Shown: positions 1 through 64,000 of the stretch, piece after piece
Layout: the number at the start of each line of letters is the position of its first letter
Numbering within the stretch: position 1 is the first letter of the stretch
NCBI GenBank assembly: GCA_027603945.1
Contig: JADIIU010000023.1
Span: 78,433-142,432 of the forward strand
Source of the DNA: Terramyces sp. JEL0728
Taxonomy: Eukaryota; Chytridiomycota; Chytridiomycetes; Rhizophydiales; Terramycetaceae
Length of the DNA stretch: 64,000 bases
Reading direction: 5' to 3'
The notes under the pieces: generated by a model
The model's database searches: none
Told to the model about the DNA's origin: nothing
Seen by the model: only the letters and a program-made list of their open reading frames with translations
Program-made: the position numbers and the translations under genes

Positions 1-597
1 CTGTTGGGCTCTTAAAGCCAGAGAGATTAAAGTAAGGATGGATGGTGATATTGGCACAGCTTTCTGGTCCATCCAACAATTCTGCTTGAGAGACAAACGT
101 CAACTCCATATCATCAAGAGTCCAAGTACAGATGAATTTGACTGTTCCCGGATATTCATCATCTCATGTTAATATCAGATTACCCAAGTGTTTTGAAGTG
201 TATGAGAATTGAACTTGTGGCGGATCCTGGGATACAATTTGATGATCCCAATATACTCTGGACAGCCCTTTTAGTCCGCCGTGAAGACTATTTGGCCCGT
301 TGTTAATAGGTAGTTGGTACTCTTTCCCGCCCAGGGTAAACTTGCCATTTTCAGTTCTACATTAGATGAATCGTACCTGTTGCATAACCTGCCGATCACT
401 TGTCCGAAATATGGTGAGTTCAGTGGTGGGTAATCGAGGGGATCGTCAAATCCAAGACAAATTTCAACTCCATCAATCAACAGGCTTGTCATTGATATCC
501 CGTAATTCAAAAACTTGGTTTTAATGTTTCCATGCTCCATTGTAATTTCGGTAATTGTGACAGAGCCATTTTTGAATTCCTGCACAGAGATTGCCAT
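1..597 (-). CDS. Aldose 1-epimerase (galactose mutarotase), 3' end cut by window edge
   Basis: Interconverts alpha and beta anomers of aldoses such as galactose. Exons on the minus strand are 597..377, 356..184 and 162..1, split by a 20-nt and a 21-nt intron. Splicing gives a continuous family-like protein with YFGQVIGRLCNR, the substrate-side motif NGPNSLHGG and the catalytic-histidine block IHPYFNLSG. The C-terminal catalytic glutamate region lies beyond the window. The ATG at 597 precedes a normal epimerase N-terminus. The identification rests on motif order; sugar specificity cannot be read. Confidence 0.88.
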
Positions 598-711
598 TTA
601 AAAACTTTAGCCCTTATGTTGCACAAATTCGGAGGAATCAGCTCAGCAATGGTATCAGGCAGGATGCTTGAACGCGACTTGTAAAATCAGAAATCGCGTT
701 GTTTGCTGGCC

Positions 712-3663
712 ATGAGCAAAGTACTAGAGGAAGAGTAATAGCAAATTTAATCATAGCTACGATGAAGATTATGAGCCTACTATAGACGGTAGCTTATTCT
801 AACCGCTAGAAATCGAGGAATACGGCCAGTTTTTAGGCATGAACCCAAAATCTGAAAAACACTTGTTGTGGATAGCTAGAGAATCTTTAAAAGCCAAACT
901 ACCACCAGACTGGAAACCTTGGTACTCTATATTAATCTAGTCAAACTGGCGATGGAAATATTTATTATTTCAACTTCAAGACGGGAGCAAGCAGTTGGGA
1001 TCATCCGTGCGATGAATACTACAAGGAACTTTATCATAAAATATTAAAGGAAGGAGATCCAAAAGGTGAAATTAAAAGAAATGAAGAGCAGAAACGGAAG
1101 GCTGCAGCATCAACGAAGCCTTCAAGTGCTTCTCATTCATTTGTACCTAAAATACCAGACACTAAATCTAGCGATTCGGCAAGTTCAAAATCGCCAGTTA
1201 GGCATGATTTCAAAAAGTCTCCCCCTAAAACAATGATCAAGATTAATTCGATTGATGATTTTGAACTATCTGATTCGAGCGGTGACAAGAAGATTGTAAA
1301 GCCAGTAATGAAACCATTGCCGTTGGAAGCAAAAGCTCTACCTTCACTTAAAATGGCGACTATTCCAATTCTGGGTTCTAAACCTGTTCTCGATGATGTT
1401 GATGATTTTGATTCTGACGATAATGTCCCTAAAACGACAGTTTCCAAACAAACTGCCATCCCAAATAACCTCAAAGAGCCAATACAAAAAACCACTATTC
1501 TACCTCCAAAAGATATTTCATCTATTTTGTCAAAAGGTGCTACTGATACTTCAAAAACTCCAATGTTGGATATCAAGAGCACATCAGAAGAGAAATTATA
1601 TTCCAAACCGTCATTATTGATGAAACCAGGAGAAAAATCGTTCCCGCATTCATCTGTATTACAGCCAAAAGCAGATGATATTGATGGTTTTGACTCGTCA
1701 TCTGAAGAAAGTAAACCTAAAAAAACAATACTCGAGGTCAAACCAATGTTGAAAAAAGAATCGCCTTCACTTGCAGAAAAAGGAGCGAAAACAAACGATT
1801 TTCCACTAATGCAGAAACAAGAGTTGGGCCAAGCGAAATTACCGGTTAGTCAGGAACTGGAAGCTAAGAAGAAAGAGCTTGAACAAAAGACACTTGAAGA
1901 ATTACAAGAATTTGAGAAGGGACAACAGAGAAAGGTCGAACAAAGGAAAGAGGAACTCGCAAATCAGTATAACAGAAAGTTTGATCAGCTGCAAGATGAA
2001 CAAGAATTGAATTTTACAAGAAAACAAAACGAGGTTTTACAAAATTTCAAAATCCAATTCAACAGTTTCCAAAACAAGTACGCCTTGCTATTTGATTCGG
2101 TTATTGAAGAATTGATCCACACTTCAGTCACATTCTCCATGGACAATTGCGATATTGAATTAAAACCGATTCAAACAGAATATAAATCTGCAGACAAGAT
2201 TGCCCACGAGCTTCAAACTGGTTTTGTTACTTTGGTCAAACAGAAATATTCACAGAGTGTTGATAGGTTAAAGGAAAAGACAAAAAAAGTCCTTGATGAT
2301 TTTGAAGTTGACCAAGTTCAGAAGTTGGACGCTGTGAGGGCAAAGAAACGCAAGGAAGCGCTTTCTGTATTAAGCCAAACGAATGATATGAAAATCTACA
2401 AAGTTTTGCAAGCGAGCGATGCTGGGAATGGCTATTTACGTAAAAGTACCAATCGTTAATTCTAGGCGTTGGAGATTTTATTTTGGCTGAAAGTGACATA
2501 GAAGCAGGTACCTTTACGGGTTACAACTTGACAACTCAAAAAGAAGGCAAACTATCCATCAATTCTGTTGAATTGGCCGATTTAAAACGAGAGGCAAGAG
2601 ATAAAGCAGAAGAGAAAATTAGACACCAAAAAGTAAATGAAGCGCAAATAGAAGCCCAACTTGAAGATCGCAAATTAGAAGAAAAGCGGTACGAAAATTC
2701 ATTGAAATTTGCTGATCTACAAAGGGAGTATGAGGAGAAATTAAAGCGATACGACCAGGATATACTAGATTTACAAAAAGAGCAAGTTGAAAAATACAAC
2801 TCGACAAAAGCAATGTGGGATAGGAGATTACATGATCTTGAGACTTTGTATGAAGCCAAATTGGAAACAATCAAGAAATCGCAAGAGATTGCAAAAGAGC
2901 AAATAGAAGCGGCTAGTGAAAGAAAAACTCCAAAGCTAGAAACATTCAGCTTCAAGGATGATAATTCTCACTCCTACTACAAAGGGAAACCGCTGTTATC
3001 ATACACTCCGGACGATTTCGATGTAACGAATGACAATCATCTGGAGTTCTCAAGCTCGTCATCGATATCCGAGTTTGAAAAATTTAGCACCGCTTTGAAA
3101 ATGGAAGGAAAGCATATTAGAAAAACAAAAGAGTATCTTTACAAGCAAAAGCAGGATATTGCGGATGTGCTCGCTGACACAGATTTTGATGAGCGCTACA
3201 AAGAACGTCTGGGGTTGGGGGTCAGGAAAGAGTATGACGCTCATCCAAATATTATTAATATACATTCACCAATGCCACATCTGCAATCGCCAGGTTTACG
3301 ATCGGAATATCCTGACATCAATGTCAACCTACACAGCCATGAAATGAACCGCCAGGAAAGAGAAATAATGTAATATCTTATTAATCTAGTCCAAAACTGC
3401 AAACTGAAATTGACTCGCGCGTTGAAAAGCAAAATAGCTATCTTCAGCAGATAGAGGAAGAATTAAACCAGCTGACAAAAGTATTAAAACAGAAAACAGT
3501 CTCTGTCGAACCGTCTGCGAGACACAAATCTTACGCAGCCGCTAGTATTAGAAATAGAAGGGGAAATGAAAACATTTGGAAAAAGGAACAAAAGCGAACC
3601 GAAGCAGTGGTGATTGAACATCAAGACTGGCTAAACCAATTACCCAACAAGCTAATCCTATAG
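712..3663 (+). CDS. CEP164-like centriolar/basal-body WW-domain coiled-coil protein
   Basis: CEP164 sits on distal appendages and docks the basal body to the membrane when a cilium or flagellum forms. Exons: 712..734, 757..788, 810..921, 941..2439, 2466..3369, 3390..3663 (947 aa; introns of 22, 21, 19, 26 and 20 nt). Residues 1-80 match the CEP164 N-terminus: an acidic start, a helical segment with LLWIARESLKAKLP, then a WW domain at about 49-79 (LPPDWKPCQTGDGNIYYFNF, SSWDHP). The middle is Ser/Lys/Asp-rich and low in complexity. The rest is long charged coiled coil (Glu/Lys/Gln). The stop is 3 bp from the stop of the convergent gene. Orthology to CEP164 is likely rather than proven, because only the N-terminal module is diagnostic. 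Confidence 0.82.
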
Positions 3664-3666
3664 AAT

Positions 3667-5173: not shown

Positions 5174-7261
5174 TTACAGGTATATTCCGTTTCTGGATGT
5201 TTCTTCGTTGTGAGCAGCCTGAACCGCCTGATCGATCGTACGGAAGATGTACTGCTTGGCAAATACAGCTTGGGTGCCATACTTTTCCAATCGGTCCTGC
5301 TCGATAACTCTGCTTGTGCGAGAAACATGGAAATCTGGATTTTCTGCATTTGCAACCACAGGCGTGATTTCATGGTTTGGTTTCAATAGGTTGATGAAAT
5401 ACACCAGTATATGTTCGAAATGAGGACGGACATGGGCAAAATAGAATGGCACTCTTCTGCCAGCGTAGCTCTCCACGTCTTTTCTGATATCAACTAGCGT
5501 TTGTAAGCCTGTTGCATCAATGTTGTTTACAGCAGAGAAATCAAACACAACAGCTTCAAGCACTGGTAATTCTTTCGAAGAGCTATTGTCCCACACGCCT
5601 TCAGTTTCAAGCTTTATAGCTGCATCAACTTTGCACCACAGACGATCAGCTAACCCTGCCTTTCCATTATATCTAGTTTGTTTCTGAATTTCGGTATTGA
5701 CGTAGTTTGTGATGTAGTTGGCGTTTGGATATGTCAAAGCCTCTTCGATTCTGAATACTATAATACCTGGTGGGGGTGGAACTGCATCTACTTCATCATC
5801 ATCTTGCTTAATAGTTTCTACACCAGACCATCCCCCTGCACTATCTCTGACAAGGGTATAGGCATTTGGACGGGCAACGCGATAGAGTACGACCAACAAA
5901 GCAAAGGTAACACTGCTGTAAATAGCAGTTTCAATGGAAAAGAATATCGTGATGACAAATGCAATGAGGAAGGACAAGAAATCATAGAACTCAATGTTCC
6001 ACAGTTCTACCAATAATGCTGGACGACTGATCAAATCAATGATGGCTGCAATGATCATTGCGGACAGTGCCGCACTTGGGATGTAATAAAAGGCAGGAGT
6101 GATAACATAGATGGCCAAGAGCACAATCAGCGCAGTAATTACTCCAGCAGCAGGTGTTTTAACGCCTGATCTAGACTTGATTGACGATCTGGAGAAGGAA
6201 CCCGTTGCAGCAAAACCACCAAAGAACGGAGCAAGAACATTGGTAACACCAAGAGCAATGATTTCCTGGTTTGGATCTACACGATAGCCGTTCAATCTGC
6301 CAAACGATTTGGTAACTGCAACATGTTCCAAAACACTGACAAGGAAGACAGATACGGCTGTTGATGCGAGACTTCCAAACTGATTCAAGTTAGGAACGTG
6401 AATATAATTCAGACCAGTTGGGACAGTACCTACAATTTTGAACTTTGACTTGGATAGGTTTGCATTGACACCGTAGCTAACAAGCGTGAACAAGATGATT
6501 GCAACAGCATTTGCAGCCTGTCCAATCCAAATAGCCCACTTATGACCTCTTTGGACCAAAAAGTAAGTTGCGAGTCTGAAAATGATGATAAGAGCCAGAG
6601 TGGACAAACCAATGACAATATCAAAGTTAATGTTGTTGAAGGCAGCACAGGTGTTATACAAGACCAAGTAAGCAGGATCGTTAGTGTTGATGTTTGGAAT
6701 CCCGAATAATCCTGCAATTTGGCCAATGATAATTTGGAATGCAGCACCAGAGGTAAATCCGGCAATAACTGGAATAGGAATCAAGTCTACAATAATACCC
6801 AAACGTAAGAGCCCAACAATCAACTGATAAATTCCAGTAATGACTGCTAGCGAGAGAGAATAACTGACAATGTCCATTCCAAGGCCTTTGGCATTTGCAG
6901 CTAGCAGTTGGCCAGACAGTTGGGATAATACAGCTGTTGGCCCGATAGTTACATCCTTGGATGTTGCAAATAGAAAGTAGGTAATGACCCCGACAAACGA
7001 AGTATACAATCCGTACTGTACTGGAAGACCAGCTAGCTTGGCGTATGACAGAGACTTGAATTAATAACCAAATACCTGAGGGATAACCAACATGCCAACT
7101 GTTGTCCCGGCAACCAGATCGTGCAAGAACCAGTCCAAGTTATATCTTCCAATCCAAGTAAGAACAGGGAACAAGCTAGCAACATAAGTTTTTGCGTTCT
7201 GCGGGAGATTCTTCCCAGTCTCTTTGAGTGAAGCCTTTAGTGATTCCGAGGTGATTCTCAT
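5174..7261 (-). CDS. SLC26/SulP anion transporter with STAS domain, copy 1
   Basis: A membrane anion transporter of the SulP/SLC26 family (sulfate, oxalate, bicarbonate or chloride; substrate not readable). Exons on minus are 7261..7076 and 7054..5174 with a 21-nt intron inside the signature: LVAGTTVGMLVIPQ is followed after splicing by SLSYAKLAGLPVQYGLY. 688 aa, with about 12-14 membrane segments up to residue ~450, then a STAS domain (VFDFSAVNNIDATGLQTL). The stop lies inside AATAAA. It is a tandem paralogue of the gene at 7808..9837 with the same intron position and blocks of perfect nucleotide identity (5859..6037 and 6357..6649). Confidence 0.93.
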
Positions 7262-7807: not shown

Positions 7808-9837
7808 TTATAATTCTTTTTCATGTTGTGCAGCTTCAACTGCTTGATCTATGGTTCTCCAAATGAACTTCATTGCAAAATTGGTTTGAACATCGCCTTC
7901 TTTAATCTGGCTGACAGTCGAATCTCGATGGATTTTAGTAAGTGACGGATTGGAGGCATTTGCGAGAATTGGCGCAACATCATGAGTAGGGTCAGTCAAA
8001 GTCAGGAAATACACCAAGATATGCTGGAAATGAGGTCTGGCATGAGCGAAATAGAAAGGCACTTTCTTGCCAGAATGAACCTCGACTTCTTTTCTAATAT
8101 CAACCAACGTTTGAAGCCCCGTTGAATCAATATTGTTTACAGCAGACAAATCAAAGATAACCGCTTTCAATTCTGGTAGATCAAAATGCCCTGTCTTCTT
8201 ATGTGGTGATGCATTCCATTGGTTCTCTACACCTGCATTTCCGTTATATCTGGTCGAGCTTTCAACCTTGCGGACTACATAATCATTCACGTAGTTGGAG
8301 TTGGGATAAGTCAGAGCTTCTTCAATCCTAAACACCAAGATTCCAGGCGGTGGTGGGACAGCATCTACTTTATCATCATCTTGCTTCATTGTTTCTACAC
8401 CAATCCATCCACCAGCATTGTCTCTGACTAGAGTGTAGGCATTTGGACGGGCAACGCGATAGAGTACGACCAACAAAGCAAAGGTAACACTGCTGTAAAT
8501 AGCAGTTTCAATGGAAAAGAATATCGTGATGACAAATGCAATGAGGAAGGACAAGAAATCATAGAACTCAATGTTCCACAGTTCTACCAATAATGCTGGA
8601 CGACTGATCAAATCTGTAATCGCAGCAATGATGATTGCTGATAGTGCCGCACTTGGGATGTAATAGAACCACGGAGTGATAACATAGATGGCCAACAGCA
8701 CAATCAGCGCAGTAATGAGTCCAGCAGCCGGTGTTTTAACTCCAGACCTTGATTTGATTGACGATCTGGAGAACGACCCAGTCGCTGCAAATCCACCAAA
8801 GAATGGACCAATGACATTGGTAACACCAAGAGCAACAATTTCTTGATTTGGGTCTGCACGATATCCATTCAATCTGCCAAACGATTTGGTCACTGCAACA
8901 TGTTCCAAGACACTAACTAATAGCACAGACACTGCTGTTGATGCGAGACTTCCAAACTGATTCAAGTTAGGAACGTGAATATAATTCAGACCAGTTGGGA
9001 CAGTACCTACAATTTTGAACTTTGACTTGGATAGGTTTGCATTGACACCGTAGCTAACAAGCGTGAACAAGATGATTGCAACAGCATTTGCAGCCTGTCC
9101 AATCCAAATAGCCCACTTATGACCTCTTTGGACCAAAAAGTAAGTTGCGAGTCTGAAAATGATGATAAGAGCCAGAGTGGACAAACCAATGACAATATCA
9201 AAGTTAATGTTGTTGAAGGCAGCACATGTGTTATACAAGACCAGGTAAGCAGGGTCGTTAGTGTTGATGTTTGGAATCCCGAATAATCCTGCAATTTGGC
9301 CAATGATAATCTGAATTGCAGCGCCAGAGGTAAATCCGGCAATAACTGGAATAGGAATTAGATCGACAACGATCCCCAATCTCAGGAATCCGATCGCCAA
9401 CTGATATACCCCGGTAATGAATGCCAAGGAAACTGAGTACGACACGATATCAATCCCGAGCCCTTTTGCATTTGCAGCCAACAATTGTCCAGAAAGTTGA
9501 GAAAGTACGGCAGTAGGCCCGATTGTAACATCCTTTGAGGTAGCAAACAAGAAATACATCACCACACCAACGAATGAAGTATACAGTCCGTATTGTACTG
9601 GAAGACCTGCTAATTTTGCATAAGCCAGCGACTTGTATCAAAAACAAATACCTGTGGGATAACGAGCATACCAACAGTAATTCCAGCAATCAGATCATGC
9701 AGCAGCCAGTTCAAGTTGTAATTACCAATCCACGATACAACTGGAAACAAGCTTTTCAGGTACGCAACAGATTGCTTTGGTAAATTTGCGGCAGCTTTAT
9801 TGAATTCAGAGGATACGAAGGCTCTGGTTATTCTCAT
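7808..9837 (-). CDS. SLC26/SulP anion transporter with STAS domain, copy 2
   Basis: Tandem paralogue of the gene at 5174..7261. Exons on minus are 9837..9652 and 9631..7808, with a 20-nt intron at the identical codon position (VIPQ then SLAYAKLAGL). 669 aa, the same membrane core and STAS domain (VIFDLSAVNNIDSTGLQTL). The ATG at 9837 gives MRITRAFV, matching MRITSESL of copy 1. It differs mainly in the STAS domain and termini. Two internal tracts (8436..8614 and 8934..9226) are identical to copy 1 at nucleotide level, which points to gene conversion. The stop codon overlaps AATAAA. Confidence 0.93.
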
Positions 9838-10083
9838 TTGCAAAAATAAAATTCCACCTCGCGATTTTATATCTCGCATCACTCAATTTTGACAGAAAAT
9901 CGCACAATCCAAATGCTTGGACGGCAAATGAAAACTGGCCTGGGAAATATTAAAAGTATCGTAAAAGTAGTTACGGCACTCTGTCGATGAATAATTGGGC
10001 GAGACTCTGAAAGTTGGTAACAAAGGTAACAAGTTTATTCTTGCAATTTGGATATTTTCAATGTAATGCGGGACATGGCATTG

Positions 10084-10330: not shown

Positions 10331-10343
10331 TTCAAAGCATTTA

Positions 10344-13290: not shown

Positions 13291-13407
13291 ACTAAATATA
13301 ATGTAATAAAAGAATTCAGTTTATTCGAACCAATTTCATAGACAGATAAACTCATCCGTGGATGAGAAAATTATTGTAATTGACATACAAAGTGCAAATA
13401 ACCTGGT

Positions 13408-40743: not shown

Positions 40744-41594
40744 ATGCTCTCCTTCATTCCGTCATTGATTGCGCTCAGTGCAGCACTGCCAGCTACATCC
40801 AACTTTAACAATATTTTCATTATTGTATTGGAAAATGAAAGTTTTGGCCCTACTTTTAACCAACCTTACTTTGGCAAAGTGCTTGCTCCAAAAGGACGCT
40901 TGCTGACCAACTACCATGGTGTTACCCATCCATCCCAAGTACTATTTTGCTAACCTAGCCAAACTATATCGCAATGACATCTGGATCTACTAATGGTGTT
41001 TTCATGGATTTTACTGCTGATGTCGGCAAGACTAATGTTGTAGATAAATTAGAAGCAGCTCAGTTGACTTGGAAAACTTACCAAGAGAGCTACCCAGTTG
41101 CTTCTGGATGCTTCAAAGGTGACGCTGCCCCATACTATCGCAAGCACAACCCATTTGTCTCTTACAAAAATGTTCAATCCAATGTAGCTAGATGCAACAA
41201 TATTGTAAACGCAGATCAATTGCAAGCCGATATCGCATCCGGCCAGCTTGCAAATTACATGTTCTACACTCCAAACATTAACAATGATGGACACGACACT
41301 GACTTGGATTACGCAGCTAACTGGCTCCAAGGATTCATCGAACCATTGCTCGCAAACCCTGTCTTCTCAAAGACTTTGTTTGTCGTTACTTTTGATGAAA
41401 GTGCCAATGTCTTGGATATTGATACTGTTCACAACCAAATCTACACTGTGTTGTTGGGTGCTGGTATCCCTGCTGGTACTCAAGACAATACCTACTATAA
41501 CCACTACTCGCTCTTGAAGACTTTACAAACCAACTGGGGAATTGGAAGCTTGACTTCAAATGATGCCGGTGCAAATGCATTCAACTTGCGCTAA
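40744..41594 (+). CDS. Secreted acid phosphatase, copy 3
   Basis: Exons 40744..40938 and 40959..41594 with one 20-nt intron; 276 aa. The start at 40744 gives a signal peptide (MLSFIPSLIALSAALP); an in-frame ATG at 40627 would bury it. Motifs as in copy 2: IFIIVLENESFGPTF, KGRLLTNYHGVTHPSQ, PNYIAMTSGSTNG, YYRKHNPFVSYKN, YTPNINNDGHDTDLDY, FVVTFDESANV. The intron sits where copy 2 has its first; the YYRKHNPF site is uninterrupted. Protein and nucleotide similarity is highest to copy 2, implying recent duplication or conversion. Confidence 0.88.
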
Positions 41595-42060: not shown

Positions 42061-43176
42061 ATGTTCAGAGGTTTAGGAAAATTAGTCGACAATTTGGAAA
42101 AGGTAGTTGAAAAAATAGACCCAAGCCAAGTTGAAAAGGTACCTTACAAGCTAACGCAGGCGCTGGGTAAAGTGATTGGAGGAAATGAAACTACCACCGG
42201 TAGAAAACCAACTGGTTCAATGTCAACTCATACGGGAGGCAATGGCAAACGCAGAGCATTGTTAATTGGTATCAATTACGTTGGAACTCAAGCTCAATTA
42301 TCCGGCTGTGTCAATGATGTAAACAATGTTCACAATTTCATCAAGGACCAGTTTAACGATATTAGAATCTTGACTGATGATCAACAAGGACAAAGCAACC
42401 CAACCAAAGCCAATATTATCGAGTCATTCAAATGGTTGGTCTCTGGAGCTCAGCCTGGCGATTCATTCTTCTTGCATTACTCTGGACACGGTTCAACTCA
42501 AAAGGACGAAGACGGTGATGAAGTTGATGGGTTGGACAACACCATTTGTCCAGTAGATTACAATTCTGCCGGTATGATTGTCGATGATGTATATTATTAT
42601 TAATGGTAGGAAATGAACACAATCCTTGTTCAAGCTTTACCTGAAGGCTCCAGATTGGTAGCTATTTTCGATTGTTGCCATTCTGGTACCATGCTTGATT
42701 TGCCATTCATGTACACAATTGATGGAAACTTGGAAGTAACTTGCAAGAGCAACAAGCAGGCTGCATTGGAAGGCGGTATCAAAGCACTTAAAGATTTCCA
42801 AAAAGGCGACAAGCAAGCTGCGATGAAGGAAGCTTTCAGCGCTCTTTCATTGTTAACAAAACAAGAACAAAACACTCCAAACTCTGAGGCAGAAAAGAAG
42901 ACTTTGGCAACCAAATTTTCTAAAGCCGACGTACTAATGTTCTCTGGATGTAGAGATAACCAAACTAGTGCTGATGCTAAAATCAACGGCCAAGGATGTG
43001 GTGCCATGTCATGGGCTTTATTAGCTGTCCTTAGCAGCTCTAACGGAGCCAAATTGTCATTGAAAGATCTGTTGGCCCAATTGAGAGAAAAATTGCAGGG
43101 CAAGTATGAACAAATCCCTCAAATGTCTACTTCACATGAGGTAGATGTCAACAACAACCACTTTTCACTCGTTTAA
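42061..43176 (+). CDS. Metacaspase (active-site residues intact)
   Basis: Type I-like metacaspase, a calcium-dependent Arg/Lys-specific cysteine protease. Exons 42061..42588 and 42610..43176 with a 21-nt intron after VDD; 364 aa. A helical N-terminal prodomain (~55 residues, no zinc finger or long Pro-rich tract) precedes [14 protein letters not shown]. The catalytic dyad is His143 in HYSGHGS and Cys199 in FDCCHSG. The C-terminal block [17 protein letters not shown] closes the p10-like part. The start is the ATG at 42061; an in-frame TTG lies upstream. It is followed by a mutated paralogue. Confidence 0.92.
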
Positions 43177-43739
43177 CCGATGTTCAATAAATGAAGATTT
43201 CATTGATTTTCCAATTTACTTTGCGCGAGTTGGAGTTTGACGAAAAATAGCTTTGAGGTCGGATTTTAGCTAGCAGGTACGCAGTCTCTTTGATACATTG
43301 GTTTAAAGACCAAAAGTCTCTTTGGCGAATCTAAAAGTTCGAGAGCACATGGATTTGGACCAACATGAAGGGTGCTGCTTGTTGGTGATAATATAAAACT
43401 TGCACCTTGTAATGCCCAGCTCTAATTAAACAAAATTGACCAAATTTTACTGCTTTTTTGTTACATATGAATGTTCCCGCGTCAGCTAGCTAAATAATCC
43501 GTTTATTGCGAGAACAGGCCGCCAAACAGAAAAGAAATTCGCCAGTAATAGCTAATATAGCATTCATTTAGGTATTATATGCCGACCGAACTATAGCCAG
43601 TAAAACCAGAGAATGCTACATTTGCAGTCTCGCCACCGCACAGATCGCCACTGGTTCCCAGCTACGAAACCAAAAATAGCAGGTAAACTCCAACGATTCA
43701 TGTTCCGTATAAAAGTAGTTCCCATTACTAAAATAATAA
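43177..43739. other. Spacer between the two metacaspase genes
   Basis: 563 bp, AT-rich. AATAAA follows the first metacaspase stop by about 15 bp. No coding frame of interest, repeat or RNA gene seen. Confidence 0.35.
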
Positions 43740-44827
43740 ATGAATTGTTTCGCAAGCTGTTTAGGTGAAGTAGAAAAGGAAGCAAACAAAGTCAAAGATG
43801 AAGCAAGAAAAGTTACTCCGCACTCAGTAAGCTACCACTTGACATAGGCAATAACCAAAGCATTTGACGTGCAAGAATCAGCTAGTGTAAAACCAACTGC
43901 CATGATGACCCATGAAGGCGGATACGGAAAACGAAGAGCTCTGTTAATCGGCATCAACTACTTTGGCTCGCAAAACCCCTTGTCGAACTGTATTAGCAAT
44001 GTTCGCAACGTTAACGACCATCTCAAGGATTTGTATTCTGATATTCGCGTTCTAAGTGATGACCAAAGTGGTGAAAGCCTGCCTACTAGAGCCAATATTA
44101 TTGCGTCTTTCAAGTGGTTGGTTGAAGGTGCTCAACCTGGTGATTCATTCTTTTTACACTTTTCTGGTCAATCTGCTGCTGTTAAAGACCAAGATGGAGA
44201 TGAGCAAAATGGAAAAGATGATGCAATCTGTCCAGTCGACCATGCTACTGCTGGTCTGATCCTTGATGATGTAATCAATGCTAAATATAGGAAATGAATA
44301 CGCTCCTCGTGCAATCGCTACCTGTTGGTTCAAGACTTGCGGCAATCTTTGATTGTGCTCATGCTGGGACTATGCTCGACTTGCCTTTCGACTACATCAT
44401 CGATAATACAGGCCAAGTTGTTTTACAAGACAGCAAGCGCTCTATAGTAGATGGCGGATTCCAAACCTACAAGGATATCCAGAGTGGTAATGCCGCAGCT
44501 GCAGCCAAAGGTGCCTTTGGCGCATTGTCTACTTTGGCTACCATGAATCAAAAAGATGCAGCAGTAAAAAAGACTAGAGAGTTGAAATCATCGAATGCTG
44601 ACGTGATCATGTTCAGTGCTCATAGAGATGCATTTTCGAATGATGCCAATTATGTAGTTTCTAGCGCGCTCTTGTCTGTGTTGGACAAGGTAGAAAGCGG
44701 CTCCAAGCCCACTCTCAGCGACTTGCTGGTTAAGATGAAGGATAGTTTGAAGGACAAGAAACTTGAACCGCAAATGTCGACTTCCCATGCAGTAGACGTA
44801 AAAACCAACTTTTTCTCCCTTGTTTGA
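43740..44827 (+). CDS. Metacaspase-like pseudoprotease lacking both catalytic residues
   Basis: Exons 43740..43826, 43848..44270, 44291..44827 (introns 21 and 20 nt); 348 aa. It aligns along its length with the preceding metacaspase ([56 protein letters not shown]). The catalytic His position reads HFSGQS (Gln137 for His) and the Cys position FDCAHAG (Ala193 for Cys). Proteolysis is not expected. The N-terminus MNCFASCLG has cysteines suited to palmitoylation (inference). The frame and both introns are intact, so it looks maintained; it could regulate the active paralogue. The intron after LDD matches the one in the first copy. Confidence 0.9.
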
Positions 44828-53992: not shown

Positions 53993-54922
53993 TTACTTTG
54001 CTTCGTCAGCATCGTCAGCTTTGCCTTCATCTGCTTTACCATCTACATCAGATAATCAGTTACCTTCTTGCAGATCAGAAGTCCAGAGTGTTAGGTTGTC
54101 TCTTAATAGTTGCATAATCAATGTTGAATCCTTGTATGAATCTTCACTTAAAGTGTCGAGCTCAGCAATAGCGTCATCGAAGGCTTGCTTTGCAAGATGA
54201 CAAGCACGGTCAGGAGAATTCAAGATTTCATAGTAGAACACTGAAAAGTTGAGCGCTAATCCAAGACGAATAGGGTGAGTAGGAGCTAATTCAGTTTGAG
54301 CGATTTCTGTAGCAGCTTTGTAAGCATCGTGAGCGTTGCCAGCAGCGTCTTTGCGTTTTTCTCCGGAAGAGAATTCAGCCAAGTAACGGTGGTAATCACC
54401 CTTCCTAAAAAGTTAGCACTGTTCTGATTCGAAAATGCTTTTTTACATACATTTTGTAATAAAAGACTTTGGATTCACCTGCTTCGGCGGTTGGGATTAA
54501 ATGTTGATCAAGAACAGAAAGGATATCGGAGCAAACATCAAAGAGTTCTGATTCGATTTTAACGCGATATTCCTTGATTTTGCCGACTTGTGAGTCGTTT
54601 CCTTTTGATTCTTCCTTTGCTTCAATTGAAGAAACAATACGCCAAGAAGCACGGCGAGCACCGATAACATTCTTGTATGCTACAGAAAGTAAATTGCGCT
54701 CTTCAACAGTGAGTTCTAATCCAAGCTGTTGTTAATCGAGAGTCTTACCTTTGCAACTTCCTAAAATCATCAGACTCTATCTTACCTTCATAAATGTGAC
54801 CATTTCTATGGTTAGCAAGGGTTCTTACCATCGTATCGTTCAGCTTGTTCAGCCAATTTTGCCATGTAAACTTGATCGTCTCGGGTTCCTGGCATTAGTA
54901 ACCTCGCACCTTTATCAGCCAT
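53993..54922 (-). CDS. 14-3-3 protein, copy 1
   Basis: Dimeric phosphoserine/threonine-binding adaptor. Exons on minus: 54922..54829, 54805..54786, 54760..54749, 54725..54451, 54404..54064, 54042..53993; introns 23, 25, 23, 46, 21 nt; 263 aa. Third exon is only 12 nt. Conserved: [99 protein letters not shown] and [13 protein letters not shown] separate last exon adds an acidic, Ala-rich tail ([16 protein letters not shown]). The 46-nt intron is the longest found and has a classical TGCTAAC branch motif. Confidence 0.96.
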
Positions 54923-55452: not shown

Positions 55453-56295
55453 TTAACGACCTACCATTAGCACAACTAACCTTTCATGTCATTTTCCCAT
55501 AATCCCAAGTTATCGCGCAATAACTGCATGATGAATGTGGAATCCTTGTAATTTTCTTCACTTAAAGTGTCAAGTTCAGCAATCGCATCATCGAAAGCCT
55601 GCTTGGATAAGGCACAAGCTTGTTCCGGAGAGTCAAGGATTTCATAGTAGAAAACAGAGAAATTAAGGGCTAGTCCCAAGCGAATAGTATGAGTTGGTGC
55701 TAAATCAGTAGCTGCAATTTCGGTTGCTTGCTTGTAAGCTTCTAGTGCTTTGTTTGCTGCTGGCTGTCTCTTTTCTTCTACGCAGAATTCAGCAGTGTAT
55801 CTGTAATAATCACCTTGCCTGGAATTAGCACGAGTTACATTTTCAAATAAAATACTTTGGCTTCCCCATCTTGCGCTTTTGGGATTAATACAGCTTCCAA
55901 CAGCGCAAGGATTTCATTACAAATATCGGTCAATTCGACTTCAATCTTTGAGCGATATTCCTTAATCTTGTTTGTGTGTTCAGGGTTGGTTGGTTCCTCC
56001 TTTTGCTGAATTGCAGACAAGATTCTCCATGAGGTTCTTCTTCCAGTGATGACATTCTTGTAGGCTACAGACAACAGATTGCGCTCTTCAATTGATAAAT
56101 CTTGTTCAAACTGGGTTAATTCGTCATTACGTTAGATACAGTCTGATTAATCGAAACTTACTTTCATGAATTTCACCATTTCTTGGTTAATTGATTCTTA
56201 CCTTCGTATCGTTCTGCTTGTTCTGAAAGCTTGGCCATGTACACTTGGTCATCTCTGCTGCCTACCATTAGTCTCTCTGTACTGAATTTGTCCAT
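55453..56295 (-). CDS. 14-3-3 protein, copy 2
   Basis: Exons on minus: 56295..56202, 56181..56162, 56142..56131, 56110..55839, 55818..55481, 55460..55453; introns 20, 19, 20, 20, 20 nt; 247 aa. The first four intron positions match copy 1, including a 12-nt third exon (TVSN against EVAK in copy 1). Conserved: [73 protein letters not shown]. The final intron is optional: without it the protein stops at 55476 after DMKG, with it after DMKGR from an 8-nt exon. It lacks the acidic tail of copy 1. Confidence 0.94.
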
Positions 56296-57081: not shown

Positions 57082-58312
57082 ATGGCAACAGTTGGTATCT
57101 CTCATTTACCAAACCAAAGGCACAGAATAGTATCCCGCAAAGGAGCCGCTTTCACCTTGATGGTCGTTGGTAATTTTATTTTTATTCAGGTTCCTCTGGT
57201 CTTGGAAAATCCACCTTTATCAACACCTTGTTTTCAACTTTACTAAAGGATTACAAGCAGCAACCGAAACGAGTTCATGATCAAATTGAAAGAACGGTTT
57301 CCATTGACGTAGTCAGAGCTGGTATTTATTTTTTTACAAGATATCGAAGAAAAGGGCTTCAATGTTCGTCTGACTGTCATCGATACTCCTGGATTTGGAG
57401 ACTATATGAATAACCAAGATTGCTGGGTCCCAATTGTTGAATTTTTGGATGAACAGCATTTGACATACATGAAGGCAGAACAGAGTCACAAGAGATTGGA
57501 AGCCGATGATTTGAGAGTACACGCTTGTTTATATTTCATTCAGCCATCCGGACACACGTAAATATTTTTAATGTAGATTGACTTCGCTGGATATTGAAGT
57601 TATGAAGCAGCTTGGGACCAGAGTAAATCTGATTCCTGTTATTGCAAAGGGAGACACTTTAACAAGAGATGACATGAGAGCGTTCAAAAATAGAGTAATT
57701 GAAATTGACATAGGTTTTGGATTGTATCAATGCCCATGGAATCAACATGTACACTCCTCCATTAGACGATGAAGATGATGACGCTCAAGCTGTCATTGAA
57801 GCAATGCCATTTTCAATCATTTCTTCCGATGCTGATGTAACTGTCAACGGACAGAAAGTTAGAGGTAGAGAATATCTATGGGGGGTTGCTGAAGGTTTTT
57901 TATACTAATACGAGTTGAAAATGAACAACACTGTGATTTCAAAAAGCTCCGCAACTTGCTAATCAGAACAAACATGTACGATTTGATTTCATCTACCGAA
58001 GACAACCACTATGAAGAATATAGAATGCAAAGATTGACTGCTAGTGGGTTATCTGATGACGACCCAGTCAGAAACGCGCAAAAGAACATGTCTGCAAAGA
58101 TGAAGGAAGACGAGGAATCCCTTAGAAAACGATTTACCGAGCAAGTCCGTCTTGAAGAATCTAGATTCAGAAAATGGGAACAAAACGTAAGAAAGCACTA
58201 ATATTAGCTTATTGCTGAACGCGACAGACTTAATAAAGACCTTGAAGACCACCACAAAATGGTCAAGGATCTTGAAACTGAGGTTGACGATTTGCAAGCC
58301 GCCAATCGTTAA
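57082..58312 (+). CDS. Septin GTPase
   Basis: Filament-forming GTPase of cytokinesis and cortical scaffolds. Exons 57082..57169, 57190..57321, 57341..57557, 57577..57694, 57714..57894, 57915..58186, 58208..58312; introns 20, 19, 19, 19, 20, 21 nt; 370 aa. P-loop GSSGLGKST (30-38), switch DTPGFGD (88-94), AKGD (169-172), septin-unique GREYLWGVAEVENEQHCDF, and a C-terminal coiled coil (RDRLNKDLEDHHKMVKDLE). The intron after FKNR must be removed to obtain NRVLDCINAHGINMYTPP. A polybasic stretch (RHRIVSRK) precedes the P-loop. The stop overlaps AATAAA. Confidence 0.95.
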
Positions 58313-59169: not shown

Positions 59170-60703
59170 ATGAGAATCAGAATCCATCCAGCAATCAAGC
59201 GCTGGAATTCAGACTACAAATCAATTCACTTGAATAATTTGCAATCCGTAGAGAAATATCCAGCTTTCAATTCCCAGCCGTTGGAATTCAGCCAAGCATT
59301 GAAAAAGCCAGCAGGCCCAGTATCAATTTGTGGAAGAGTAAAGAGCAAACGCATCCAAGGAAAGAATCTTGCATTCGTTGATATAGTGAGGGACCAGCAA
59401 GTATTGCAGGTGGTTTTGAAACGAGAGCAAATGGAGTCTTTTGATAGTGTGCACATTGGAATTGGTATTAATTCACTTATGCAAGGGGATATCTATGAAT
59501 TTGAAGGAACGGTTCATGATACTCGTAAAGGGCAAACCAGTCTGTATGCTACTAATTTGAAATTACTGGCTCCGTGTCTTTATCGAATTCCAGAAGAACT
59601 AAAAGACGATGTAACTATTAATTTATACTAGAATACAAAGCACCGTCTGCCTTGGTTGAATTTACTCGTCAATGCAGATTCCGTCCATAATCTTCAAACG
59701 AGATTCAAAGTAATTAATTACATCAGGACATTTTTAAATGAAAAGAAATTCACAGAGATCGAAACACCGGTATTATCAGCACAGTCTGGAGGAGCAAACG
59801 CGAAACCATTCAAAACTCATCTTGACACATTTGAAATGGATTTGGAGCTGAGAATAGCACCGGAATTGTATCTAAAGCAGCTGATTGTCGGAGGATTTGA
59901 CAAGGTGTATGAAATTGGCAAGCAGTTTAGAAACGAAGGTACATGTTTGTTTACTCGGGAATTGATGCAACTCATAATCCAGAATTTACTACTTGCGAGC
60001 TGTATCAAACATATACTACTGTGGAAAATATGATGGAGATGACGCAGGTACTGTTTAGGGATGTATTTCGAAATATCAATCAAACGCAGTCAACTTTTAT
60101 TGCTGTGGATGGCGAGGAACACAAGATTGATTTCAGTAAAGATTTCAAAAGGATAGATATTGTGCCTGCGCTTGAAACTATATTAGGAAAACTGCCGCCC
60201 CTGGAGAATGGTGCTCTAATTTAATGATAGAATCGATACCACAGCTATTGAATATTTGTGACCAGCACAAGATATCTGTTCCGGATCCGCAAACTTTACC
60301 ACGGATTTTGGATAAACTAGTGTCTGAATTGATTGAACCAAAGTGTATAGAGCCTACGTTCTTGATTGGCCATCCACAAGCACTCTCTCCCCTGTCAAAA
60401 TGCAAAGGTGGTGTCGCAGATAGATTTGAATTATTTATAGGCAGAAAAGAGTATGTTAACTGTTATTCGGAATTGAATGATCCTAAAGAACAGCTAAAAA
60501 GATTTCAGGATCAACAAGAGGATAGAAACAAAGGAGATGGCGAAGCGCAACAGCTGGACACTAATTTCTGCAAGGCTTTGGAGTATGGTCTACCTCCAAC
60601 AGTTGGATGGGGGCTTGGCATTGATAGATTAGTCATGCTAGTTGTTGGGACAAGACGTATCCGCGATGTTATTGCATTTCCAATCGTCAAACCAGAGAAA
60701 TAA
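59170..60703 (+). CDS. Lysyl-tRNA synthetase, class II
   Basis: Charges tRNA-Lys. Exons 59170..59610, 59632..59938, 59959..60210, 60231..60703; introns 21, 20, 20 nt; 490 aa. OB-fold anticodon domain ([20 protein letters not shown]), motif 1 region [19 protein letters not shown], motif 2 [20 protein letters not shown], motif 3 [20 protein letters not shown], and [20 protein letters not shown]. The second intron ends in GG rather than AG but is needed to restore the motif 2 block exactly. The short basic start ([12 protein letters not shown]) could be a mitochondrial presequence (inference). The start is 44 bp from the divergent SUMO start. The stop overlaps AATAAA. Confidence 0.93.
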
Positions 60704-61314: not shown

Positions 61315-63231
61315 ATGTCTTGCTATAATTCCCTACATCTCTTTAAATCTCAATATACATATACATTTGAACCAACAACAGCTGATGCTTTACTCCAGCG
61401 AGAATCACTAGTGATTAGAAGAAACGATGGAATTGTATCTTTAAATGGTATTCTCCTTCTGACCAAGCTCCCCCTTCTTCCACTCTAGGACAAGAAGAAC
61501 GAGTGCAATGCCACGGTATACTGGGAATCATTCATTTGAACGGAGGTGTTTTATTTTAATTCAGGAAACCACTTGATTATCATCTCTGGCAAGGAAAAGA
61601 TTGGAAACTATGAACAGCATGAAATATTCAAAGTGAAAGGAATAGAATTACTGCCAATTAACAGGAATTACAATGTCACTGAGCATCAGAAACAGGATGA
61701 TTTAAAGTATTTGGATATGGTTAATCAATTGATGGAGATGGGATACTATTTCTCGTACACTAAAGATATCACAAGAAGCGTACAGTCAGGATTGTATGTA
61801 AACAAGAATGCACCTCTCTGGCAGCAGGCGGACGACAGATTTTACTGGAACAAGTATCTGCAATCACAATTGATTGAACTAACCGAGCGCGAGCCTGACC
61901 AAAATGTAATTTCAAAGTAATTCAGTTGTCCAGATTTATTTTGCCTGTAATTTGCGGTTTCTGCTTTATCGCTGAAAGGAATTTTGGATATATTTTAATA
62001 TCTAGAAGGAACAAGTACCGTTCTGGAGCCAGGTACCATTGCAGAGGAATAGACGAACAAGCCAATGTTGCAAATTTTGTGGAAACTGAACAGATAGTGC
62101 TTTCCAAAACCGGGATAAGATCCTACGTTCAAACTCGTGGTTCTATTCCATTGTTTTGGAGACAAGAAGTAGGGCTGAAATACAAACCAAAGCTTGTGGT
62201 GGAGACAAGATCGGAAACAGTATTTGCTTTTAATTTAGGAAAACTTGTTCAAACAGCATTTTAACAAACTATTTCAGCTCTATGGCCCTCAAATCGCAAT
62301 AAATCTCATAAACAAGGATGGATATGAAAAACCATTGGGAGATGAGTTTGAAAGGCAAGCATTTTTGATGAATGACGAGCGATTAAAGTATGTTCACTTT
62401 GATTTCCATCACGAATGTAGAAAAATGCAATGGCACAATATTTCAAAACTAATTCAATCTATAGAACAAGATTTAATCACTCAATCTTACTGCAAAGTCA
62501 TTGGAGATAAAGTTTCCCGACAGCTATCTACCACGAGAACCAATTGCGTCGATTGCTTGGATAGAACCAATGTAGTCCAGAGCATACTTGCAAAACGAGT
62601 TCTAGAAATACAGTTGCGTGAAGAAGGGATATTATCAGAGGTAGACGGTTTAGAAGCTTTGGAGTTTTACAAACTATTCCAAAATGGTATCCTATTTTTC
62701 ATTTAGTGTGGTCAGACAATGCTGATGCCGTCAGTAACCAATATTCTGGCACAGGGGCTTTGAAGACTGATTTCACCAGGACGGGCAAACGCACCCCATT
62801 AGGTTTGTTTTATTAATCCAAAGGCGCTTTACAGGATTTAGGAATCTCTATAACGAGATATGTAAAGAATCATTACCAGGATGGATTCAGACAAGATGGG
62901 TTTGATTTGATACTTGGAACTTACTCTATAGAACAAACGTCACCTTTCATAAAGCGGCCCCAGGATATTATCTACACGATATTATTTGGATTCTTGGTTA
63001 CAATGATCACCATAATATTCACATTGCTATCACAGAGTAATTTCCACTAATGTAGCTTTCTATCAATTTCTAGTTCGATTTATTCTTGCTCTTGGAGCGA
63101 CATTTATGTATAGTAGGCTGCTACACGAACACCAACATGACCTGGTTTCTCTACCGCAGCTAGTGAAACCAAAAGTCAAGAGAGAGTATGCAGCGGTGGA
63201 TCAATGGCAAAATACCCTAAAGCAGCTCTAA
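61315..63231 (+). CDS. SAC1: Sac1 phosphoinositide phosphatase
   Basis: ER/Golgi enzyme that dephosphorylates mainly PI4P. Exons 61315..61447, 61489..61545, 61565..61905, 61926..62219, 62239..62686, 62707..62802, 62824..63036, 63056..63231; introns 41, 19, 20, 19, 20, 21, 19 nt; 585 aa, the family length. Visible: [59 protein letters not shown], catalytic CX5R in [12 protein letters not shown] (Cys378, Arg384), [14 protein letters not shown], then two C-terminal membrane segments ([18 protein letters not shown] and [15 protein letters not shown]) as in yeast Sac1. Confidence 0.95.
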
Positions 63232-63268: not shown

Positions 63269-63548
63269 ATGTCCTTTGTTCCTGTAAATCCAAAGCCATT
63301 CTTGACCGAACTAACTGGCAAGCCAGTTCTAGTCAAACTCAAATGGGGCATGGAATACAAAGGGACTCTAGTCTCCATCGATTCCTACATGAATATGCAG
63401 GTACCTTTGACTAATGTAGTTGAACCACACTGAAGAGTACGTTGACGGAGCACCAACAGGAGTGTTGGGAGAAGTATTGATCAGGTGCAACAATATACTT
63501 TATGTGAGACAAATTGAAGAGGAGCAACAGGATCAAGAAATGGAATAA
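63269..63548 (+). CDS. Small nuclear ribonucleoprotein SmF
   Basis: Core Sm-ring protein of spliceosomal snRNPs. Exons 63269..63400 and 63420..63548 with a 19-nt intron exactly after YMNMQ; 86 aa. It matches SmF along its length: [70 protein letters not shown]. SmF rather than LSm6 is favoured by NPKPFL and the LIRCNN ending. The stop overlaps AATAAA. It starts 38 bp after the SAC1 stop. Confidence 0.94.
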
Positions 63549-63612
63549 ACATTTATTTTGTAGAGGATATTTTACCTGAGACATTGCAGGGTTAGATTTA
63601 TTATAGAGAAAA

Positions 63613-63699
63613 AGTTGCACTGGTAAGCGAAATATCTGAGAAGTTGCACTGGTAAGCGAAATATCTGAGAAGTTGCACGCTTAAGCGAAAATATCTTCC
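63613..63699. repeat. Three 29-bp tandem units at a gene end
   Basis: Units at 63613..63641 and 63642..63670 are identical or nearly so; 63671..63699 is a diverged third unit that contains the last codons and stop of the minus-strand gene ending at 63681. The outer units appear to be copies of that gene end. Confidence 0.85.
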
Positions 63700-64000
63700 A
63701 GTTCATCGTCAGATGGCACATCTTGTGATTCAGATGGCATATCTTGAGGATCTTTTGATTCAGATGGAATTTGAACTGTAGATACAAGCAGTTTTGTGTT
63801 TGAAGGATGTGGTGCTTTTGGTAGAGGTGGAATTGTAGGGGCACATGGTGGACGAGGGCCAACTCCTTCCCATTCCCCTAGAGTTTGGGCTGGTATAGAT
63901 GATATGATTGTGACTTTGGAGAGTAACGAGGGGTGAGGTGTTTTTGGGGGAGGAGGAACGAATTCTTTCTTTACCATCGAGGGATGCGGAACACTAGGGG
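63681..64000 (-). CDS. Proline-rich protein, C-terminal part (5' end beyond the window)
   Basis: The minus frame is open from the window edge to the stop at 63681..63683. It encodes a Pro-rich region with repeated PHPS blocks (FVPPPPKTPHPSLLSKV, IPPLPKAPHPSNTKLL) and an acidic end (QDVPSDDELEDIFA). An ATG at 63977 could start it, but the frame continues upstream in the same style, so it is probably partial. Family not identified. The stop lies in a 29-bp tandem repeat. Confidence 0.55.
   Translation of the reverse strand, partial: PSVPHPSMVKKEFVPPPPKTPHPSLLSKVTIISSIPAQTLGEWEGVGPRPPCAPTIPPLPKAPHPSNTKLLVSTVQIPSESKDPQDMPSESQDVPSDDELEDIFA

Follow-up and report, generated by a model that had tools for sequence, protein, structure and literature searches.

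Genomes whose introns are nearly all ultrashort have been reported in nucleomorphs, ciliates and mikrocytids, and our literature search found no such report for a fungus. In chlorarachniophyte nucleomorphs, as described in PMC4035089, 19 nt is the commonest intron length and most introns are 18–24 nt. Stentor coeruleus has introns in 18% of its genes (as reported in PMC9505925), and mikrocytids are parasites with 17–19 spliceosomal proteins (as reported in PMC10245619).

We analysed a window, the whole 64,000-nucleotide stretch of DNA, and a 264-kb sample with 135 genes, 192,521 nt of coding sequence and 313 short introns; the genome assembly around the window comprises 15.0 Mb in 231 contigs. 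Sequence comparison makes it very probable that the source is a Boothiomyces-like chytrid whose nuclear genes hold U2-type spliceosomal introns of about 19–22 nt, each recognised as a unit. By extrapolation, such introns would number in the thousands genome-wide.

A chytrid nuclear genome

Among the matches listed, the nearest relative by protein is Boothiomyces sp. JEL0838 (E1, 92% identity; Isy1, 93%), followed by Globomyces (69% and 54%). This agrees with the fungal nucleus proposed in an earlier reading of the sequence alone. Boothiomyces is a free-living chytrid genus, placed in Terramycetaceae, Rhizophydiales. Given the intron size we also weighed a ciliate, nucleomorph or apicomplexan source, which the chytrid protein relatives ruled out. 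A scan of the window for Rfam families and tRNA genes found none.

Introns peak sharply at 19–21 nt

With a gene finder that used neither a splice motif nor a favoured length, GT–AG introns showed a length peak at 19–21 nt that was missing for all four control dinucleotide pairs. When GT–AG introns of 12–120 nt were allowed at a flat cost of −6, 77 of 170 calls were 18–26 nt, against 8/165, 18/147, 25/160 and 22/151 for the control pairs, so that GT–AG ends were favoured above the others. The 18–26-nt excess was also visible in an earlier run with order-4 coding and a high cost (15 calls versus 2, 4, 4 and 3); those settings were overly strict and of little use. On the two strands together, the pattern GTA...YTRAY...AG at 19–22 nt was seen 88 times, whereas 40 Markov shuffles gave an expectation of 21.1.

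We then applied a model trained on 200 kb outside the window; its seed introns came out of an initial pass in which window ORFs had contributed to the coding scores. It called 94 introns in the window, 92 of them 19–25 nt (26 of 19 nt, 34 of 20, 24 of 21, 4 of 22, 3 of 23 and one each of 25, 44 and 72), and 93 of the 94 were identical to calls of the joint model. Given a reversed copy and a shuffled copy of the window, one of each, it called no genes. The joint model gave 37 window genes at a score of at least 10, and 29 of these carry 91 short introns, none of 18 or 26 nt. The sequence-only reading had placed about 87 introns in 29 genes, all but two of them 18–26 nt and mostly 19–21, in good agreement with these counts; both examples that it quoted, 922–940 and 63401–63419, were called by the model trained outside the window. 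Its view that ultrashort introns occur throughout was borne out across the genes of the 264-kb sample, where 312 of all 322 calls were at most 26 nt and 297 were 19–22 nt. The trained finder permits AG 3′ ends only, which in part presupposes canonical ends; in a relaxed run that permitted other 3′ ends, 308 of 313 calls ended in AG.

Coding sequence and paralogues support the junctions

In the ubiquitin-activating enzyme E1, six junctions compared with eight homologues (chosen among 120 listed) gave 48 of 48 gap-free windows. Spliced models covered Pfam profiles as follows: 14-3-3, 1–223 of 223; V-ATPase_C, 2–371 of 371; Syja_N, 1–305 of 305; Septin, 8–275 of 280. In four hand-picked paralogue pairs, a scripted comparison placed 8 of 11 introns at an identical codon and phase, with lengths that vary between matching positions (for example, 25 versus 19 nt). 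The 14-3-3 pair has four common positions by script and a fifth by eye, the last intron being not alignable. The genes for Prp8, Slu7, SF1 and U2AF65 themselves contain ultrashort introns.

Table 1. Window genes and their introns, in window coordinates
Gene	Position	Strand	Introns (length, nt)	Evidence and remarks
WW-domain, coiled-coil gene	712..3663	+	735-756 (22), 789-809 (21), 922-940 (19), 2446-2465 (20), 3370-3389 (20)	WW by Pfam; CEP164-like by eye only
Sulfate permease paralogue 1	5174..7261	-	7055-7075 (21)	Pfam; codon and phase match paralogue 2
Sulfate permease paralogue 2	7808..9879	-	9632-9651 (20)	Pfam, finder, paralogue comparison
V-ATPase subunit C	30946..32168 (end approximate)	+	31087-31105 (19), 31260-31278 (19), 31565-31584 (20), 31841-31859 (19), 31998-32016 (19)	Pfam V-ATPase_C
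Ubiquitin-activating enzyme E1	34765..37902	+	34806-34826 (21), 34913-34934 (22), 35351-35372 (22), 36627-36646 (20), 36980-37002 (23), 37459-37479 (21)	Homologue junctions gap-free
Phosphoesterase-family paralogues (two)	39529..41594	+	39721-39739 (19), 39923-39943 (21), 40939-40958 (20)	Pfam for first copy; first and third introns at same codon
Caspase-domain (metacaspase-like) paralogues (two)	42061..44827	+	42139-42159 (21), 42589-42609 (21), 43827-43847 (21), 44271-44290 (20)	Pfam for first copy; positions common to both paralogues
14-3-3 paralogue 1	53993..54922	-	54889-54909 (21), 54806-54828 (23), 54761-54785 (25), 54726-54748 (23), 54405-54450 (46), 54043-54063 (21)	Pfam 14-3-3 1-223 of 223; 12-nt microexon 54749-54760
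14-3-3 paralogue 2	55453..56295	-	56262-56282 (21), 56182-56201 (20), 56143-56161 (19), 56111-56130 (20), 55819-55838 (20), 55461-55480 (20)	Finder, paralogue comparison, Pfam; 12-nt microexon 56131-56142
Septin	57160..58312	+	57170-57189 (20), 57322-57340 (19), 57558-57576 (19), 57695-57713 (19), 57895-57914 (20), 58187-58207 (21)	Finder, Pfam
Lysyl-tRNA synthetase	59170..60703	+	59465-59485 (21), 59611-59631 (21), 59939-59958 (20, GG end), 60211-60230 (20)	Finder and homology
Sac1-domain gene	61315..63231	+	61448-61467, 61546-61564, 61906-61925, 62220-62238, 62687-62706, 62803-62823, 63037-63055 (all 19-21)	Pfam Syja_N
LSM-domain gene	63269..63548	+	63401-63419 (19)	Pfam LSM; SmF by eye

Longer calls and exceptional ends

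The sequence-only reading had named two longer exceptions, of 46 and 41 nt. We recovered the first, at 54405–54450 on the minus strand (GTATGT...GCTAAC...TAG), and did not find the 41-nt one in the window. Removing the 46-nt segment restores KMKGDYHRY in 14-3-3 paralogue 1, and its site is, by eye, that of the 20-nt intron 55819–55838 in paralogue 2. Judged by homology, this predicted intron is real and is the sole longer one with such support that we found in the window. A 19-nt call at 54401–54419 is an overlapping fragment of it and not a separate intron. The 72-nt call (32163–32234) was rejected as a fusion of two neighbours, V-ATPase subunit C, whose profile is matched upstream, and a MORN-repeat gene. 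For the 44-nt call (59939–59982), a 20-nt GT...GG intron at 59939–59958 is the better reading. It restores 13 residues of lysyl-tRNA synthetase and contains a branch-like TTTAC whose A, at position 15, is followed by 5 nt. Among five calls with non-AG 3′ ends, this is the only one backed by homology. Dropping 54401–54419 and adding 59939–59958 leaves the number of short window introns at 91. Elsewhere, a 30-nt call in Prp8 proved to be coding, as GNLTTKPING occurs in solved Prp8 chains, and a 15-nt call in SF1 is doubtful. At the start of Isy1, judged by the JEL0838 protein, a single 70-nt intron is no worse a fit than three ultrashort introns in tandem.

The 46-nt intron and the plausible 70-nt intron would suit a mixed genome, in which the ultrashort class stands alongside many longer introns that the finder missed, and our length comparisons end at 120 nt (flat-cost run) and 150 nt. 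We consider this very improbable. Calls of 27–150 nt showed no excess over controls in the 264 kb (GT–AG, 8; controls, 9, 4, 2 and 5), GT–AG calls of 41–80 nt in the flat-cost run were rarer than those of control pairs, and neither E1 nor Prp8 requires a longer intron.

Fixed spacing of donor, branch site and 3′ end

An exact YTRAY branch site was present in 231 of the 313 short introns and absent from 82. YTRAY is complementary to the GUAGUA stretch of U2, which the U2 of this genome contains. The best motif match put the branch A at intron position 14–15 in 261 of 313 introns and 5–6 nt from the intron end in 262, positions that are predicted rather than mapped; they fit the earlier suggestion of a branch point near the 3′ splice site. 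Frame-breaking close decoys in exons, at a 25th-percentile threshold, numbered 4 on the sense strand versus 27 on the antisense strand; codon-shuffled exons had 15.6 ± 3.2. With the threshold loosened to the 10th percentile, avoidance was weak (75, 107 and 88.0 ± 9.7, respectively). Computation demonstrates the lengths, motifs and fixed spacing, the restoration of coding sequence and the avoidance of close look-alikes in exons.

These features bear on whether the segments are introns at all. Ciliate short IESs cover a similar length range, and IES-like DNA inserts, assembly indels or translational bypass might be proposed instead. We give this almost no weight: the segments have strand-oriented GT–AG ends and a U2-complementary branch site at fixed spacing, decoys are avoided on the sense strand, paralogues share positions while lengths change, and the genome is fungal rather than ciliate.

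Under the preferred reading, spliceosomal introns recognised whole (intron definition), recognition would be by three close signals: an AAG/GTAATT-like donor, a YTRAY-like branch site with its A at 14–15, and AG 5–6 nt further on. Splicing would take the usual two steps, with a lariat loop of 14–15 nt. U1, and later U6, would pair with a stretch adjoining that of U2: with the branch A at 14–15, the predicted U1 (+1 to +6) and U2 (about 8–16) pairings abut, with 1–2 bases between, so the earlier description of almost overlapping sites is about right. A polypyrimidine tract would not fit between the branch and the intron end, so how far the AG lies from the branch would be the main determinant of 3′ splice-site choice. 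Activation would have to proceed without the extended arrangement seen in the human B complex, where PMC6692369 gives an estimated 52 nt from donor to branch.

Most splicing parts searched are present

Eight of the 11 splicing parts searched were found (U2, Prp8, SF1, U2AF65, Slu7, Prp18, Cwc25 and Isy1), including seven of eight protein families. U2 scored 140.2 bits against its Rfam model, with the branch-pairing GUAGUA intact. A genome search gave no match for U1. U6 had two weak matches of 27.4 and 26.9 bits, under the 44-bit cut-off, with ACAGAGA present and the AGC triad missing; the two sites share 98.9% identity across 3.1 kb and are probably a single locus represented twice. The conserved U6 20-mer, at up to three mismatches, occurred at three places (backward control, one), none Rfam-supported at E values up to 1. 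The RED_N profile gave no candidates in the genome in a search run without a positive control, and reading this as genuine absence of RED is unjustified.

The sequence-only reading had suggested that the spliceosome may be modified and had proposed U2, SF1, U2AF and Prp8 as places to look for divergence. U2 proved ordinary, and SF1, U2AF65 and Prp8 are present. A spliceosome substantially modified for these introns, in which factors have disappeared or been reshaped around the active site along the lines conjectured for Stentor, seems to us possible and on the doubtful side. It would accord with the missing U1 match, with the RED_N result, given that human cells need Smu1/RED for short introns (as described in PMC6692369), and with an Isy1 that begins MAPKTLAQKQE, here and in JEL0838, in place of MARN. 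Among 120 listed of 374 Isy1 relatives, 61 start with MARN and 9 with MARS; many others apparently begin at an internal Met. However, Isy1 starts are also unusual in Globomyces, Kappamyces and Gorgonomyces, Slu7 and Prp18 are both present, and the Cwc25 MGGG plug is kept, in MGGGDLNLKKSWHP, which matches the solved CWC25 homolog 5yzg_X at each of 14 residues. Loss of the plug, as in Stentor, is thereby ruled out. In yeast biochemistry, short spacing between branch and 3′ splice site is associated with dispensing with Slu7 and Prp18; an accompanying loss of the two is likewise ruled out here. The earlier suggestion is less well supported than the fungal nucleus, the ultrashort introns and the branch site near the 3′ end; the candidate change in Isy1 and the undetected RED leave room for subtle modification.

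With eight of the 11 parts searched present, any adaptation is more probably local remodelling than gross reduction of the spliceosome. One specific version strikes us as unlikely: that this chytrid, with an otherwise ordinary spliceosome, reached the lower limit of intron size independently through a rebuilt Isy1 N terminus, convergent with Stentor, and a 3′ site chosen by distance (5–6 nt), with even GG usable. The Isy1 N terminus would there be the protein tip that reaches the active site beside the intron backbone.

Introns of about 20 nt lie far under the spacing normally needed by the human splicing machinery. If they are spliced with these eight parts kept, the B-complex donor–branch spacing of about 52 nt is not dictated by those parts. 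The exact branch site in most of the introns, together with chytrid cultures held in a public collection (as described in PMC7537106), makes minimum intron size testable. For annotation, most gene models in such a genome would be broken if the minimum intron length were set higher than 20 nt.

Comparison with known ultrashort-intron genomes

Like this genome, the chlorarachniophyte nucleomorphs of Bigelowiella natans, Lotharella oceanica and Gymnochlora stellata are intron-rich with mostly GT–AG introns (as described in PMC4035089); they are reduced endosymbiont nuclei, whereas the genome here is fungal. B. natans has 5′ sites that are largely GT(A), and PMC2483917 describes no branch signature for it or for Paramecium tetraurelia, in contrast to the strong YTRAY found here. 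Paramecium and Nyctotherus, both ciliates, have solely ultrashort introns (PMC5014332), of about 25 nt. Stentor shares near-uniform tiny introns, a fixed branch position, a canonical U2 branch-pairing motif and an Isy1 N terminus that is not conserved, and, as reported in PMC9505925, differs in its 15–16-nt introns with a weak branch consensus, in the loss of the Cwc25 plug and in that Slu7 and Prp18 were not found. The mikrocytids Mikrocytos mackini and P. canceri also show very narrow sizes and conserved intron sequence; theirs are 16–17 nt, with 224 introns in M. mackini (PMC10245619), compared with 313 in our 264-kb sample alone. Among short-intron fungi, Cryptococcus neoformans is similarly intron-rich, with a mean intron of 63 nt, about three times longer (PMC8476143).

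As in ultrashort-intron genomes generally, nearly all introns here are below 27 nt and fall in a narrow range. A weak branch signature is a common trait of such genomes and not a definition, mikrocytid introns being conserved (PMC10245619). The degenerate or absent signature of B. natans, Paramecium and Stentor is not seen here, and nor, among the 11 parts searched, are missing second-step factors, another common but non-defining trait. In the earlier cases compared, the genome is reduced, factors are missing or the branch site is weak; what is new here is a fungal genome with a strong branch consensus and second-step factors retained.

Ultrashort introns in the window and the wider genome

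At lengths of 19, 20, 21 and 22 nt, the window holds 27, 26, 23 and 12 copies of the pattern GTA...YTRAY...AG, in which YTRAY is the branch-site motif, versus 5.1, 4.9, 5.8 and 5.3 expected (both strands, 40 Markov shuffles). At other lengths it was near or below expectation, except at 26 nt (7 versus 3.1). We also used a motif-free test that permitted any GT..AG of 12–120 nt at a single flat cost, with coding scores learned from long ORFs in two sources, the window itself and 20 pieces of 10 kb from elsewhere in the genome (264 kb together; 19 pieces chosen by contig number and 1 around a weak U6 match). At a cost of −6, 77 of 170 GT..AG introns were 18–26 nt long (21, 29 and 14 at 19, 20 and 21 nt). 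When other dinucleotide pairs replaced GT..AG, this size class held 8 of 165 (GA..TG), 18 of 147 (CT..GA), 25 of 160 (TG..AG) and 22 of 151 (GT..GA). At 41–80 nt, 28 GT-AG introns were called versus 74, 51, 55 and 56 for these controls, and costs of −4 and −8 gave the same picture.

A trained joint model called 322 introns in 135 genes across the 264 kb, 313 of them no longer than 33 nt. The model was also retrained without the window, although its seed introns came from the motif-free pass, in which window ORFs had contributed to the coding scores. It called 94 introns in the window, 93 of them shared with the joint model, and found no genes in one reversed and one shuffled copy of the window. 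That nearly all introns are ultrashort, as the sequence-only reading had claimed, is upheld by the joint calls (297 of 322 at 19–22 nt), by the motif-free GT-AG peak and by the window calls of the model trained elsewhere.

Protein comparisons agreed with these calls. In the ubiquitin-activating enzyme E1, all six junctions, aligned to eight homologues picked from the best 120 matches, were free of gaps within 8 residues in all 48 cases. All ten spliced window models or pieces matched a Pfam family, several over the full profile: 14-3-3 (1–223 of 223, twice), V-ATPase_C (2–371 of 371) and Syja_N (1–305 of 305). Across four chosen pairs of window paralogues, the first members carry 11 introns, and 8 of these lay at the identical codon and phase in the second; a ninth, matched by eye, is 46 nt long in one 14-3-3 gene and 20 nt in the other. 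By eye, both 14-3-3 paralogues also keep a microexon of 12 nt, flanked on each side by an ultrashort intron. We also counted exon decoys, which are intron look-alikes of 19, 20, 22 or 23 nt scored against a percentile of the intron scores; frame-keeping lengths were left out because the finder itself could have made introns of them. At the 25th percentile, these frame-breaking decoys numbered 4 in sense versus 27 in antisense and 15.6 ± 3.2 in codon-shuffled exons, and at the 10th percentile 75 versus 107 and 88.0 ± 9.7.

Intron anatomy

The 313 short introns began with GTA in 285 cases and ended in TAG (201), CAG (75), AAG (29) or GAG (8). An exact YTRAY was present in 231, among them TTAAT (75), TTAAC (54), CTAAT (43) and CTAAC (26). 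The best-matching branch A lay at position 14 in 133 introns and at position 15 in 128, and was followed by 5 bases in 141 and by 6 in 121; the predicted branch site is thus close to the 3' splice site, as first read, with 5–6 bases after the A in 262 of 313. The donor resembled AAG|GTAATT, and only 16% had a G at +5. Between position 3 and the branch motif lay 7.6 nt on average, 40% of them T. Most have two or three bases between motif and AG, which leaves no space for a downstream polypyrimidine tract. GC content was 30.5% in introns versus 40.2% in exons, and retention would bring in an in-frame stop for 47 of 66 frame-keeping introns. In the 264 kb, each kb of CDS held 1.63 introns on average, and at least one intron was present in 114 of the 135 genes; extrapolated to the whole genome, this would come to about 17,800 introns, probable haplotype duplicates included.

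Calls of 27–150 nt with a branch motif numbered 8 for GT-AG versus 9, 4, 2 and 5 for controls in the 264 kb, so longer introns, up to 150 nt, do not rise above background here. The 46-nt 14-3-3 intron, already singled out as an exception, is real: its removal restores KMKGDYHRY, and the spliced model matches Pfam. Two readings are possible for the first intron region of Isy1: three tandem units (20, 20 and 21 nt, with spacers of 1 and 3 nt) or a single intron of 70 nt. The protein of Boothiomyces sp. JEL0838 fits the single intron. The GG-ended intron of lysyl-tRNA synthetase has a TTTAC branch-like site at the usual distance from its end; the GG is possibly a sequencing error or a mutation.

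Features located in the genome (window positions unless a contig is named)
Feature	Position	Strand	Remark
Sulfate permeases (2), UDP-glycosyltransferases (4)	5174–20049 and 38497–44827 regions		Tandem; Pfam
Phosphoesterase-like genes (3), caspase-domain genes (2)	Same tandem regions		One of each by Pfam, others by eye
E1	34765–37902		
46-nt intron, 14-3-3	54405–54450	−	
12-nt microexon, 14-3-3 paralogues	54749–54760; 56131–56142	−	
Lysyl-tRNA synthetase intron	59939–59958	+	20 nt, GG end; restores 13-residue protein stretch
Isy1 first intron region	Contig C35, near 112,390	−	
U6-like matches	Contigs C199, 1501–1606; C111, 1501–1605		Extract coordinates

Genome and relatives

The genome comprises 15,016,339 bases in 231 contigs, with the window at 78433–142432 of contig C23. 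Contigs C30 and C33 are 99.2% identical over about 3.1 kb, and C199 and C111 98.9% over about 3.1 kb; both pairs are probable haplotype duplicates. Two regions of the window are tandem gene families (table). Among the matches listed in protein searches, E1 was 92% identical over 100% of its length to JEL0838, then 69% to Globomyces pollinis-pini; Isy1, on another contig than the window, was 93% identical to JEL0838, then 54% to a Globomyces. Boothiomyces belongs to the Terramycetaceae (Rhizophydiales, Chytridiomycota). In public records, several fungal E1 enzymes are oddly named 'SPS-sensor component ptr3', which is probably an annotation error that has spread.

Splicing machinery

U2 snRNA was found (140.2 bits) with a canonical branch-pairing stretch. 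A protein-family profile search of the genome matched Slu7, Prp18, SF1-HH, Isy1, the PROCN domain of Prp8, and Cir_N, whose best places are Cwc25. It also matched U2AF65, whose best place (251.7 bits) is under the whole-protein cut-off because the exons match piecewise. The same search, run without a positive control, gave no candidates for RED_N. Ultrashort introns lie inside the Prp8, Slu7, SF1 and U2AF65 genes themselves. A genome search did not find U1 snRNA, and U6-like matches were weak, at two places, with ACAGAGA present and the AGC triad absent.

The N terminus of Cwc25, MGGGDLNLKKSWHP, is the same in 5yzg_X, the human homolog of solved structure. Isy1 starts with MAPKTLAQKQE, here and in JEL0838. 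In the best 120 of 374 Isy1 relatives, 61 start with MARN and 9 with MARS, and many of the remainder appear to begin at an internal Met in the same region; no MARN- or MARS-like start was seen in the 1.4 kb upstream of Isy1. A MARN start is likewise missing from the Isy1 proteins of Globomyces, Kappamyces and Gorgonomyces. The suggestion of a modified spliceosome is less well supported: the Isy1 N terminus is a candidate change and RED was not detected, whereas U2 is canonical, SF1, U2AF65, Prp8, Slu7 and Prp18 are present, and the Cwc25 plug is intact.

Comparison with known ultrashort introns

Among the openly accessible papers listed, preprints aside, we found no report of ultrashort introns in Fungi in titles and abstract openings. 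For 644 surveyed fungal genomes, the short-intron example named is Cryptococcus (mean 63 nt), and intron density is high for chytrids, two of which are in the table (PMC8476143); in passages of PMC13391722, PMC9926174 and PMC6572847, which describe chytrid genomes, no intron lengths appear. JEL0838 proteins have clean junctions, which suggests that introns of this kind may have been encountered during its annotation; ultrashort chytrid introns may thus be known already, though not found in print.

From the anatomy, U1 and then U6 would pair with intron bases 1 to about 6 and U2 with bases from about 8 to about 16, so that one or two bases would separate the two stretches. The lariat loop would be 14–15 nt with the AG 5–6 nt further, and the branch-to-AG distance may replace the role of the polypyrimidine tract. 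Human B complexes hold two extended helices 15 nm apart and need about 52 nt (PMC6692369), so this fungus would require either shorter helices or an earlier approach of the two sites.

At mostly 19–22 nt, these introns are comparable in size to those described for chlorarachniophyte nucleomorphs (18–24 nt; PMC4035089), Stentor (15–16 nt; PMC9505925), mikrocytids (16–17 nt; PMC10245619) and Paramecium and Nyctotherus (about 25 nt; PMC5014332); dicyemids are also counted among the shortest (PMC2483917). The Stentor authors proposed that steric clash is avoided via the Cwc25 plug and the Isy1 N terminus (PMC9505925). In this fungus, by contrast, the plug is intact and the Isy1 tip is changed, so that the two Stentor proposals become separable.
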